Positions 1-64,000 of a stretch of DNA of 64,000 nt are shown piece after piece. This stretch comes from Clostridium sp. (GTDB taxonomy: Bacteria > Bacillota_I > Bacilli_A > RF39 > UBA660). Each line of letters opens with the position of its first letter. Position 1 is the first letter of the stretch. Both the position numbers and the translations under genes were made by a program. Location of the stretch: assembly GCA_022010095.1 (NCBI GenBank), contig CP091739.1, positions 1,054,001 to 1,118,000 of the forward strand. The letters run 5' to 3'. Below the pieces are notes generated by a model. The model was given only the letters and a program-made list of their open reading frames with translations, did not search any database and had not been told where the DNA came from.

Positions 1-1037
1 GATATTAAATTAGGTGAAGGTGTTCGTGAACTTGGTGGTTTATATGTAATAGGTACTGAAAGACATGATTCAAGACGTATTGATAACCAACTTCGTGGTC
101 GTAGTGGACGTCAAGGTGACCCAGGTACAACTAGATTCTTCGTTTCTATGGAAGATGATCTAATGGTTAAATTTGGTTCAGAAAAGATGAAAACCATTAT
201 GGAAAGTTTGGGAATCAGTGGAGACCAAGCTATTTCAAATAAAATGATATCTAAAAATATAGAATCTGCTCAAAAAGAAAGTAGAAGGATTTAACTTCGA
301 TAGACGTAAAGGATTACTAGATTTTTGATAACGTAATCTCTAAACAAAGAGAAATAATATATGAAAGACGTAATGAAATATTAGATAAAGATAGTATAAG
401 AGATAGAGTTCTTGATACATTTAAAGAATTTGTAACAGGACAAATCAATTCACACTTAAATGAAAATAATACACTAAGTGATAATGATATAGACAATATC
501 ATGGAACAATTTAATGCTCATTTACTTAAGAGAACTAAATTAAAGAAAGAAGATTTTTGAAGGTAAAAAAGCCTGATGAAGTAATTGATTTTTATCTATA
601 AAATAGTAGTAGAAGATTACAATAAGAAACTTGAAGATATTCCAGAAGAAATACAAAATGATTTTGAAAAAACAATTTCATTAAGAATAATTGATAAGTA
701 TTGGATGGATCAATTAGATGCAATGGAAAATCTAAAAGAAGGAGTAGGACTTCGTGGTTATGCTCAAAGCAATCCATTACAAGTTTATGCTTTAGAAGGA
801 TTCCAATTATTTGATAATATGATGGCAAGTATCAATGCTGAAATATCAAATTACTTATTAAATGCTGAAGTTAGACAAAATATTGAAAGAGAAGAAGTTA
901 AAAATATAAAGACTAATGATGGAAAAGAAGGAGTTAAAAAAATACACCTAAAAAAAGCAAAAAGAGAAAAAATCGGAAGAAACGATCCATGTCCATGTGG
1001 AAGTGGTAAGAAGTACAAACAGTGCTGTGGCAAATAG
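1..1037 (+). CDS. secA: Protein translocase subunit SecA, C-terminal part (5' end outside window)
   Basis: SecA is the cytoplasmic ATPase that drives preproteins through SecYEG. The visible part begins in the second nucleotide-binding fold ([21 protein letters not shown], positions about 58-120), continues through the helical scaffold and wing ([21 protein letters not shown]) and ends in the SEC-C zinc tail [15 protein letters not shown]. The frame breaks at about 283, 328, 555 and 588, each time at a run with one base too many. Since SecA is essential, these look like read errors. The last 13 codons are also the attachment site of the mobile element that follows, so the present 3' end is probably element-supplied. 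Identification is certain. Confidence 0.97.
996..1037 (+). other. Left attachment site (attL) inside secA
   Basis: This 42-bp stretch encodes [13 protein letters not shown] and the secA stop. It recurs at 45725-45766 and 46782-46824. Copies 1 and 2 differ only at third codon positions (GGA/GGC, AGT/AGC, GGT/GGA, AAG/AAA, CAG/CAA, GGC/GGT), so each preserves the SecA tail. The exact crossover point cannot be read from the sequence. Confidence 0.85.
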
Positions 1038-43185: not shown

Positions 43186-43475
43186 TTGACAATTTGGTTA
43201 ATCACTTAACAAATACATTCTCATTATGACTGGAAACGGTTAGCACATTAGTAAGTACGCTTGTCGGTAAATACTTGACTATAAATATTAAGTTGCTCTT
43301 AATACTGCGATAACAAGTAATGAGTATAATGATACTTTTGAGTAGCCACAGACTCAATCAATGGGCTCAACTCTGTGAGAACCACAGGGAGGTGTAATTC
43401 CTATGGAACTAATTAGCAATTAGTCGTTTGTTAAGTCCCTGTATTAGGGGAGTAAGTATAATTCTAATACATAAA
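43186..43475 (+). ncRNA. Structured non-coding leader upstream of xis-int
   Basis: A gene-free stretch less AT-rich than its surroundings, starting after TTGACA (43186-43191). Hairpins in order: TATTAAG / CTTAATA (43286-43304), AGTAT / ATACT (43323-43336), TTGAGT / ACTCAA (43338-43357), CTGTG / CACAG (43373-43387), ACTAATT / AATTAGT (43408-43424), CCCT / AGGG (43437-43449). GGGAGGTG at 43387 is followed by a six-codon ORF at 43402 (MELISN). CACAGA (near 43347) could alternatively pair with TCTGTG (near 43372). I do not recognise the RNA class. Confidence 0.5.
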
Positions 43476-44137: not shown

Positions 44138-45422
44138 ATGGGTAATGTCTATATACAGAAAAGAGGGAAGGTATATCAATATCAGTTTGCTATTGCACCT
44201 GTTAATGGTAAAAGAAAATATATAAACAAATCAGGATTTAGAACTAAGTCAGAAGCCATTGAGGCAGGTAATAAAGCATATAATGAATATAAAACTGCTG
44301 GTGTACCTTTTAAGGAATGTAATATATCTTATAGTGATTATTTAGATTATTGGTTAGAAAATTATTGTAAGGTTAATCTTAAATATAATACAATACAATC
44401 TTACAAATCACTAATAAATAAATATATAAAGCCAAAAATTGGAATGTATAAGCTTTCAACTATAACAAGTGTAGGACTAAATACATATATTAGTAATTTA
44501 TGTGAGGAGTACGATTTTTCAAGATCATATTTTAAAAATATATTAAAAGTAGTAAAAGGATCTTTTCGTGATGCTTGTACTAAATATGGTCTTATAAAAT
44601 ATGATCCTGCTATACAATTAAGATTACCAAAGATGGATAAATATGAAGAAGATATTAAACATTTATATTCAAAGGAAGAAATAGAAAGAATACTTGAAAG
44701 ATTTAAAGATAATAGTCCATTTACTTGTGCCTTTTTAACATCTTGTTTTACCGGTATGAGAACAGGAGAAGTATTTGCATTAACTTGGGATGATATTGAT
44801 TTTGAAAATAAAATAATTGATGTTAAACATAGTATCTATGATAAGCCAAAAAGATATAAAAGGTAGATGGTATATAGGAACAACTAAAAACCTTTTAAAG
44901 GAAAAAAAGAGAAAAATACATATGAGTGAAACTTTATGTAATGCTCTAATAAATTTTAAGAAAAAGGCAAGACTATATATAAAAATAAGTGGTTTAAATT
45001 ATAATTATTATCATATAGAGGATGTTGTAAACGAGTATGGTAAAAAAATTGAACAAAGAATTGTTAAAAAGTAGTTTAAGTGATATAAACTCCCAAAAAA
45101 ATTGATTTAGTTTTTTTGTTAAGGAAGATGGAACTTATGTTGGAACTGATTTAATAAATTATCCTTTTTAAAATTATACATAATGAATTAGGAATAACAA
45201 AATGTAGATTTTTACGATTTAAGAGGAAGTTATGCTACGACGATATTAAAGAATGGAACAGAATTACGAGATGTTGCTGATATATTAGGACACAATAATG
45301 TTGAAACCACTGAAAACTATTACATATCAAGCACTAATGATTCGAGAAAAGAAGCAACTGTTATTTTTGACAATGTTATGAACTCTGATGTTATAAATAA
45401 AATAATCAAATACGAGGTATAG
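44138..45422 (+). CDS. int: Tyrosine integrase 2 (right end)
   Basis: About 425 residues. N-terminal arm-binding domain MGNVYIQKRGKVYQYQFAI, core-binding domain (SYKSLINKYIKPKIGMYKLS), catalytic domain with Arg in CFTGMRTGEVFALTWDD, Arg in FYDLRGSYATTIL, His in ADILGHNNVETTE and Tyr in ENYYISS. In the HxxR box the usual His is replaced by Tyr (YDLR), a variant tolerated in some integrases. Breaks near 44862, 45075, 45098 and 45170-45205. It lies 300 bp from the right att copy and is a diverged paralog of the left-end integrase. Confidence 0.9.
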
Positions 45423-62467: not shown

Positions 62468-63177
62468 ATGGAAACTATAGTAGGAAACAAAGCAGTAAAT
62501 AATATAATTAATACAATTGAAAAAAACACATCCAATGAAAAAGCCAAGAATTGATGTAGATGAGGAACCTTTAAAATTACCAGAAATGGAAATTATACTG
62601 AGAATATTTACTGAAGGAAATAAGCTAACAGCAGTTACAATTTTAGACTGGAAATGGAGTTTATAAAAAAAGGAATACCTGAAAGTAAACAAATTATAGA
62701 TGAATTTATAAGTGAAACAGATTTATCAAATTTAATAAACTATATTCTAAAAACATTATCCATATATAGACAGCTTTAGTAATAGTACTAATTCAATAAG
62801 ATTAGGATTTGCTTTTTTTCACTAGACGAGAATTTATTTAGTGAAGAAGATTTAAGTATAAATCGTATAGTTTTTGAATATTGAAACATTTGACACAAAT
62901 TTAGCCCATCAAATGAGAGAATACTTAAAATTCATAATTATTAATTATAGAGAACAATTAGCGACAACAATGTGGTATGAAACAGAATATAAAAAAATAC
63001 TATACTGAATGGAAACAAAAATGTATAGATGGCATGAGTAGAGAAGATATAATTGATTTTTTTAAACACTTTACCAACAGAAAGTTTAAAAAAATATTAT
63101 TATCATCAATCGCAAATGAAAGATTTATTGAAATTCTTAAAGAGCAAGAGAAGAAATCAAAAAAAGTCAAAGCATGA
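62468..63177 (+). CDS. Hypothetical helical protein
   Basis: About 230 residues after bridging breaks near 62520, 62650, 62770, 62820, 62875 and 62985: METIVGNKAVNNIINTIEK, DEEPLKLPEMEIILRIF, MEFIKKGIPESKQIIDEFIS, MSREDIIDFFKHFTNRKFKK. No recognised domain, no signal sequence; the tail is Lys-rich. Preceded by GGGTGG. The gap 62286-62467 has only a few stop-rich frames. It is transcribed toward the EF-Tu-like gene but separated from it by a terminator. Confidence 0.55.
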
Positions 63178-63247
63178 AATTATTAAAACAAGAAGACAAT
63201 AAAAAGAACTGAAAATGTAAAAAAATATCTAATAATTAACGTAAATA

Positions 63248-63282
63248 AAAAGAGTAACACATCTATAAAGTTACTCTTTTGT
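63248..63282 (+). terminator. Rho-independent terminator
   Basis: Perfect 11-bp stem AAAAGAGTAAC (63248-63258) / GTTACTCTTTT (63270-63280). Confidence 0.85.
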
Positions 63283-63290
63283 GTTATACT
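63282..63290 (+). promoter_or_regulatory. Extended -10 promoter of the EF-Tu-like gene
   Basis: TGTTATACT directly after the terminator, 18 bp before the ATG; the leader would be only about 12 nt. Confidence 0.6.
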
Positions 63291-63308
63291 ATTTTTAGGT
63301 GAGTAGAT

Positions 63309-64000
63309 ATGGAAGATGAAAAAAAATCAAAAATAATAGGAATAGCAGTAATTGTTATAATTATAGTTGGTATAGGTACTATGCTTTTAATATCAAAGAA
63401 TATGCATAAACAAAATAATAACAAAACTACATCAACGTCAACGACTACATCAACAACTAAGAAGGCAGAAACAACTACTAAAAAGACAGAAGATACAAGT
63501 TCGTTTAGAATGGTAATTGAGGATATATTTACTGTATCAAATGGAATAACTATTGATGGAAAAATAAGCCAAGGTACAATACATAAAGGGAGATAAAATA
63601 GAAATTCTTGGCGACAATAAAGTGATAACAGCAGTAGCCAATAAAATATATATATTAAAGAAAGAAGTAGATTCAGCTACAAAAGATGACTATATCAGCA
63701 TACATATAAAAGATGTTAACAAAAGTCAAGTATCAAGAGGTCAAACTATCGCAAGTCCAAACACAATTAAAGCAGTAAGTAAATTTAAAGCGACAATATA
63801 TATAAATACATTAAAAAGAAGGTGGAAAAAGATACACCAATATTTAACAATTATAATTCTTTTATTCGTTTTTCAAAATAGAATCATATACAGGAAATAT
63901 TATATTAAATAATGATGCTGATGTAATTAATCCAGGAGAAACAAAAAGATGTAACAATTGAATTAGATACAACAGTTGCAATGGAAAAAAATACAACATT
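63309..64000 (+). CDS. Membrane-anchored protein with EF-Tu domains II and III, no GTPase domain (3' end outside window)
   Basis: Residues 1-8 are charged, 9-29 form one transmembrane helix (IIGIAVIVIIIVGIGTMLLI), and about 32-62 are a Thr/Ser/Lys linker (TTSTSTTTSTTKKAETTTKK). Then comes EF-Tu domain II: FRMVIEDIFTVSNGITIDGK, ISQGTIHKGDKIEILG (break near 63588), VSRGQTIASPNTIKAV. Domain III follows: KFKATIYINTLKEGGKRYTP (break near 63820), GNIILNNDADVINPGE, IELDTTVAMEKNTT. There is no P-loop, switch or NKxD motif. Topology is probably cytoplasmic N terminus with the EF-Tu-like part outside. A dedicated surface version of a moonlighting EF-Tu is one possibility. Confidence 0.8.

Follow-up and report, generated by a model that had tools for sequence, protein, structure and literature searches.

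A membrane-anchored EF-Tu paralogue lacking the GTPase domain and its predicted role as a surface binding module

The window gene and its intact relatives

The last gene of the window (the whole 64,000-nucleotide stretch of DNA that was analysed) lies at 63309-64000 and consists of a membrane helix, a Thr/Lys-rich linker and domains 2 and 3 (D2 and D3) of EF-Tu, with the GTPase (G) domain absent. Helix, linker and both C-terminal barrels were found between the ATG at 63309 and the window end, in keeping with a preliminary description of this DNA, and are laid out as follows.

63309..63332, + strand: start codon and short charged N-terminal tail (MEDEKKSK), with E4, K5, K6 and S7 invariant in 12 relatives
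63333..63392, + strand: single transmembrane (TM) helix (signal anchor), residues 9-28, placed from the hydropathy of the relative P0002 and a low-confidence helix in its model
63393..63503, + strand: Thr/Lys-rich linker, residues 29-65, the least conserved part of the family and of low model confidence
63504..63767, + strand: EF-Tu domain 2 barrel with a frame change inside (NCBIfam match, E 4.8e-12; PF03144 in the related locus L001)
63768..64000, + strand: EF-Tu domain 3 barrel, frame-broken and cut by the window end (tblastn of P0002; PF03143 in L001)

The window copy is damaged: about five frame changes (counted by eye) scatter its coding sequence across all three frames, and the window ends before the stop codon, tblastn of P0002 (248 residues) reaching residue 228. 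A second frame-damaged gene, the SecA fragment at window positions 1-1001, shifts frame twice relative to the SecA of G001, the genome that carries L001. A 75-aa in-frame piece of the window gene taken alone matched EF-Tu domain 2 (NF009373, NCBIfam, E 4.8e-12) and found EF-Tu in the PDB (best EF-Tu chain E 9.9e-10), which excludes a chance resemblance. Across the 102 in-frame codons compared between the window and L001 (D2 and the start of D3), dN was 0.27 and dS 1.54 (NG86), a dN/dS of about 0.17, which points to the protein being maintained by selection. Two of the three EF-Tu motifs quoted in the preliminary description were correct, while the third, EGGKRYTPIF, mixes frames, the relatives reading EGG[KN][DG].PI[FY]. 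The gene had also been credited with its own promoter, which was not borne out, a scan of 63100-63400 giving one weak promoter-like match against 2.5 expected by chance; an A+T-rich inverted repeat of 10 bp was seen by eye upstream of the gene.

A protein search with the read-through window protein gave 42 matches, of which 27 had both Pfam barrel domains and no PF00009 (25 of these aligned over 100% of the query), nine had one barrel domain recognised (P0022, P0023, P0026, P0028, P0031 and P0033-P0036) and six (P0037-P0042) were EF-Tus with PF00009. PF00009 was absent from all 36 non-EF-Tu matches and from L001, and since intact relatives without it exist, the absence of the G domain noted from the window is not a product of its frame errors. 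P0002 is itself the representative of 349 member sequences, and a wider profile search added P0043, of the same layout, among the best 120 of 3135 matches. Homologs of the kind that the preliminary description asked for exist: the 12 aligned relatives (alignment A1) are all anchor-linker-D2-D3 proteins of 245-249 aa, with a mean pairwise identity among 13 members of 0.58 in the linker, 0.72 in D2 and 0.80 in D3. An anchored, G-domain-less D2-D3 protein of conserved layout is thus supported, as is the idea of a purpose-built derivative. No relatives were found in the viral contigs searched; 90 plasmid and 16 phage records matched, with identities all below 60% and query coverage always short of 80%, and in the rows listed (5 plasmid, 10 phage) the named matches were tuf, the other phage rows being without annotation there.

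The L001 protein passes the Pfam cut-offs for both barrels (PF03144, 45.4 over 30.3; PF03143, 64.7 over 27). AlphaFold2 modelling of P0002 from a 34-row alignment yielded both EF-Tu barrels, as had been predicted, with a mean pLDDT of 83, at least 90 in 176 of its 248 residues, and block means of 92-98 starting at residue 61 and no higher than 50 ahead of it (alignments A2 and A3 comprised 34 and 24 chosen rows). Among the best 50 of 916 PDB matches to this model at E<=10, all were EF-Tu or EF-Tu-holding complexes, with a TMt of 0.93 to domains 2-3 of 5i4q_C. The transmembrane segment of P0002 (hydropathy 3.05 over 19 residues) is its only one, and no wall-sorting motif was seen by eye at the C-terminus. 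EF-Tu itself (TIGR00485; PF00009, PF03144 and PF03143) shares the D2/D3 fold, with about 40% identity between the anchored protein and the nearest EF-Tu of the same order, but the anchored protein has no G domain and instead carries a membrane anchor and stalk; the full-length TIGR00485 cut-off of 522.4 was reached neither by P0002 (141.0) and P0030 (135.2) nor by the longer relative P0128 (411.7; see below). Delivery of aa-tRNA by the anchored proteins without a G domain is unlikely.

Host, distribution and ancestry

A search of genome contigs gave five loci, of which only L001 has the full layout; it comes from a metagenome-assembled genome (MAG) labelled 'Tenericutes bacterium' (NCBI Mycoplasmatota; G001). 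L002-L004 proved to be ordinary EF-Tu regions, that of L004 running into the end of its contig, and L005 a short match. The SecA piece of the window shares 77-96% identity with 15 genomes of the G001 genus and 96% with G001 itself (18 genus genomes searched, 16 with any match), and on this sequence comparison the window host belongs to the genus of G001; the order may be RF39-like. A normal EF-Tu of 389-394 aa is also present in each of G001, G090, G178, G185, G205 and G206, in G001 within a 397-codon frame separate from the anchored gene.

Anchored D2-D3 proteins are rare, with 5 of 386 family genomes (G001, G090, G178, G185 and G386) giving a match at E 1e-8 to the N-terminal, anchored half, a query not expected to detect the type found in G206. 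A second, non-housekeeping D3 protein occurs in 3 of the 18 genus genomes (G001, G205 and G206), while in 134 class genomes, where most rows were judged by score and frame length, an intact anchored protein was found in G001 only, together with a remnant in G168 and a weak match in G275 (a 574-codon frame at 23.7 bits, below cut-off). Because MAGs are incomplete these counts are lower bounds. Of 13 short single-D3 frames fetched, nine (class, order and G185-genus samples) were EF-Tus cut by a contig end. The short D3 frame of G274 is a broken EF-Tu. With TGA read as Trp, G357 and G297 would each encode a full EF-Tu (402 and 407 codons, respectively), and the same presumably applies to a further 10 class genomes whose frames span 195-210 codons.

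The anchored proteins fall among the EF-Tus of the same order in a 72-row D2-D3 tree, which supports their descent from the EF-Tu of this lineage (trees were drawn without TU_L002, P0048 and P0095, missed by the trimming motif, and without L004 and other EF-Tus of <=380 aa). The G206 protein pairs with the EF-Tu of its own genus at weak support (88/50) and the other 13 anchored rows group together, the branch to the window type being about 2.7 changes per site. A single clade for the 14 anchored rows was rejected in the first tree (AU p 0.0076); with G386 added (15 rows) it was no longer rejected (AU p 0.28), and in the second tree 14 of the 15 rows lay on one side of a branch at 100/100. Since the rejection was lost on adding G386, two origins are possible but unproven. 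Among positions invariant in 46 EF-Tus, G206 keeps 43 of 53 in D2 and 48 of 48 in D3, and G185 keeps 42 and 46 respectively, with P0002 keeping 22 and 25.

Related architectures and gene surroundings

Other members of the group, from the same family or genus, are built differently at the N-terminus. In G185, G205 and G386 a zinc ribbon precedes the TM helix, linker and D2-D3; Zn_Ribbon_1 (Pfam) is over cut-off in G185, G178 and G386, the ribbon of G205 being recognised by sequence. G178 combines its zinc ribbon with a poly-Thr stalk, and G090 has a TM helix and a Pro/Gln-rich tail similar to the one on an anchored protein encoded nearby. The G185 relative matches positions 4-70 (ribbon and TM) of TcaA (NF053815) at 26.7 bits, but this is far below the cut-off of 550, its C-terminal part is EF-Tu and the window type (L001) has no zinc ribbon by Pfam. 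Two identical 309-aa copies are present in G185 (L028 5219-6148 and 11809-12738), and a near-identical copy was observed in G205 (L089 2805-3734), a different genus sample. Genes that we take to be recombinase-like match beside the G185 and G205 copies, and with the near identity of the copies this makes a recent transfer by a mobile element likely.

P0128 of G206 (506-516 aa) carries a TM helix and linker ahead of a complete EF-Tu with a degenerate G domain. It passes PF00009 (54.2 bits over 26.5) despite changes in its G1, G3 and G4 motifs; its model shows the TM helix and confident barrels, the G-like region being of mixed confidence. A query with its anchor and G domain returned, besides P0128, 66 proteins, none more than 35% identical and every one with PF00009 and PF03144, so that G206 is the one genome known to carry a TM-EF-Tu whose G domain has decayed. 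Remnants also occur, truncated (G168) or stop-ridden (G065) D3 pieces that both lie beside other anchored proteins.

A 526-aa protein of G158 (L091 1662-3242) was seen to combine a Pro/Gln-rich tail with a TM helix, recognised by eye but missed by the hydropathy scoring, and, by its sequence, with apparently a very degenerate EF-Tu G domain and a D3 remnant; with a D3 score of 20.9, below the cut-off of 27, it was left out of the counts. Domain-2-only proteins of the same order likewise hold an EF-Tu barrel without a G domain: L096 1810-2214 (G121) encodes a TM helix and a lone domain 2 (below the Pfam cut-off) and adjoins tuf, while L094 2150-2515 (121 aa) and L095 1922-2284 (120 aa) have a short amphipathic-looking start. 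These three differ from the anchored family in having one barrel only, two being without a TM helix by eye and the third C-in-like.

No neighbour was common to all loci seen, and there is no shared operon. The link proposed between the window gene and surface-glycan genes is weak: fragments of an ABC-2 exporter, an ABC ATPase and a glycosyltransferase lie 1.5-6 kb upstream, but one gene intervenes and the upstream neighbours in L001 differ. Downstream in L001, an MGDG-synthase/GT28-like glycosyltransferase begins 7 bases past the stop codon.

Topology and function

All 16 anchored proteins scored by hydropathy have one TM helix each. As regards the surface placement raised in the preliminary description, the net charges before and after the helix clearly favour N-in/C-out in G178 (+4/-2) and G090 (+2/-2) and weakly favour it in G185 (+3/+1). 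In most rows the window type is net neutral ahead of the helix and carries +1 to +4 behind it, a pattern that is ambiguous under the positive-inside rule and may lean C-in if anything; P0128 (+1/+2) is not decisive. A C-out orientation of the anchored barrels is nonetheless judged probable, given the charges of the relatives, the stalk and similarly built neighbours with surface-type domains. These neighbours include a zinc ribbon-TM protein at L091 3777-4565 and a Cys-rich protein with a Thr-rich stretch at L001 1080-2156, both of which look like ordinary surface proteins. Loss of the G domain would fit a compartment without GTP.

The preferred reading, about as likely as not to be right, is of a dedicated, exported, membrane-anchored EF-Tu paralogue predicted to act as a surface binding module. 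Here tuf would have been duplicated and the copy placed behind an N-terminal membrane anchor, with the GTPase domain decaying and then being lost. The two barrels, freed from translation, would after putative Sec-dependent export sit on a flexible Thr-rich stalk at the membrane's outer face and there, independently of a G domain, bind a ligand of host, mucus, envelope or neighbour-cell origin. A broader proposal, offered somewhat tentatively, is that gut Mycoplasmatota/Bacilli have fixed EF-Tu moonlighting genetically, through anchored, exported tuf copies in which a dead GTPase was kept for a while (G206) before the barrels alone remained, possibly more than once and partly via mobile elements. 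To our knowledge, extracellular binding is known solely for ordinary EF-Tu, in other bacteria.

Surface EF-Tu has been reported on many bacteria, with cell lysis often invoked and with binding sites that must evolve without harming the canonical role (passages in PMC6822514), and it moonlights there without a signal motif (passages in PMC5593925 and PMC6822514). In moonlighting EF-Tu (e.g., of Mycoplasma pneumoniae), as proposed here, EF-Tu sequence lies outside the cell, but there it is the housekeeping protein, whereas here it is a separate gene (G001) with its own N-terminal TM helix. Fibronectin binding by M. pneumoniae EF-Tu has been assigned to the regions where domain I ends and domain II begins and to most of domain III (passages in PMC5593925), and this partial reliance on domains II and III makes ligand binding by the anchored barrels plausible by analogy. 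A separate anchored, GTPase-free copy would answer the objections from the signal motif, the binding-site constraint and lysis; should the barrels lie outside, one could test directly for selection on EF-Tu acting extracellularly, and the family supplies ready-made domain 2-3 constructs as well as an intermediate whose G domain has decayed. A translational-GTPase relative with another role is also known in yeast Ski7, which differs in being eukaryotic and in binding guanine nucleotides (passages in PMC4933942). Among the open-access EF-Tu papers listed, judged by title and start of abstract, subscription journals lying mostly outside this set, no anchored G-domain-less EF-Tu was recognised.

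Alternatively, the barrels might face the cytosol, a tethered EF-Tu fragment recruiting tRNA, EF-Ts, ribosomes or the MreB cytoskeleton to the membrane. This would accommodate the window-type charges, and the TM and domain-2-only protein of G121 (same family), beside tuf, has a net charge of +5 after its helix, suggesting that its barrel faces the cytosol (C-in). The equivalents of E378 and R381 (E. coli numbering), which we take to be a tRNA T-stem contact, are moreover invariant in the 12 rows of A1. Other positions that we presume to contact tRNA are changed in P0002, which retains fewer than half of the invariant D2 positions and 25 of the 48 in D3; aa-tRNA delivery is hardly to be expected without a G domain, two relatives are clearly C-out and Thr-rich stalks are unusual in the cytosol. 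Such a tether is unlikely.

More doubtful still is a role as decoy or sensor where EF-Tu is under attack from toxins, phage or EF-Tu antibiotics. The G386 copy (L104 216-4666) adjoins a CBASS set of cyclase, E2 and 4TM effector, with a fragment that we take to be amidase-like just downstream, and the two G185 copies lie beside nucleases of the candidate-defence class PDC-S02 and recombinase-like genes; the 4.3-kb G205 contig has recombinase-like genes only. At the equivalent of Thr382 (P0002 residue 237), presumably the site in EF-Tu phosphorylated by the Doc kinase, all 12 rows of A1 have Asp or Glu, a residue choice resembling a fixed phosphomimetic. Set against this, no defence genes were seen by eye around the G001, G178, G090, G206 and window copies, variable regions are where such genes gather regardless, what we take to be the domain-2 antibiotic pocket is changed in the window type, and barrels outside the membrane would miss cytosolic toxins. 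That the gene is a pseudogene, mis-assembly or truncated EF-Tu is highly improbable: for all the frame shifts of the window copy, the G168 and G065 remnants and the chimera-like P0022 and P0025, the many intact copies (the 349 sequences behind P0002) with conserved anchor and barrels, purifying selection and a normal EF-Tu in the same genome contradict it.

Elsewhere in the window, the integrase-like ORFs at 1269-1568 and 44138-44866 have nearly identical N-termini (MGNVY.QKRGKVYQYQFAIA), and the approximately 43 kb between them hold genes that we take to be ParA/ParB-, conjugation- and NlpC/P60-like, so bounded a stretch being probably an integrative conjugative element. An Rfam pemK RNA (58.1 bits, over the gathering score) lies at 43326-43406, inside this mobile-element region.
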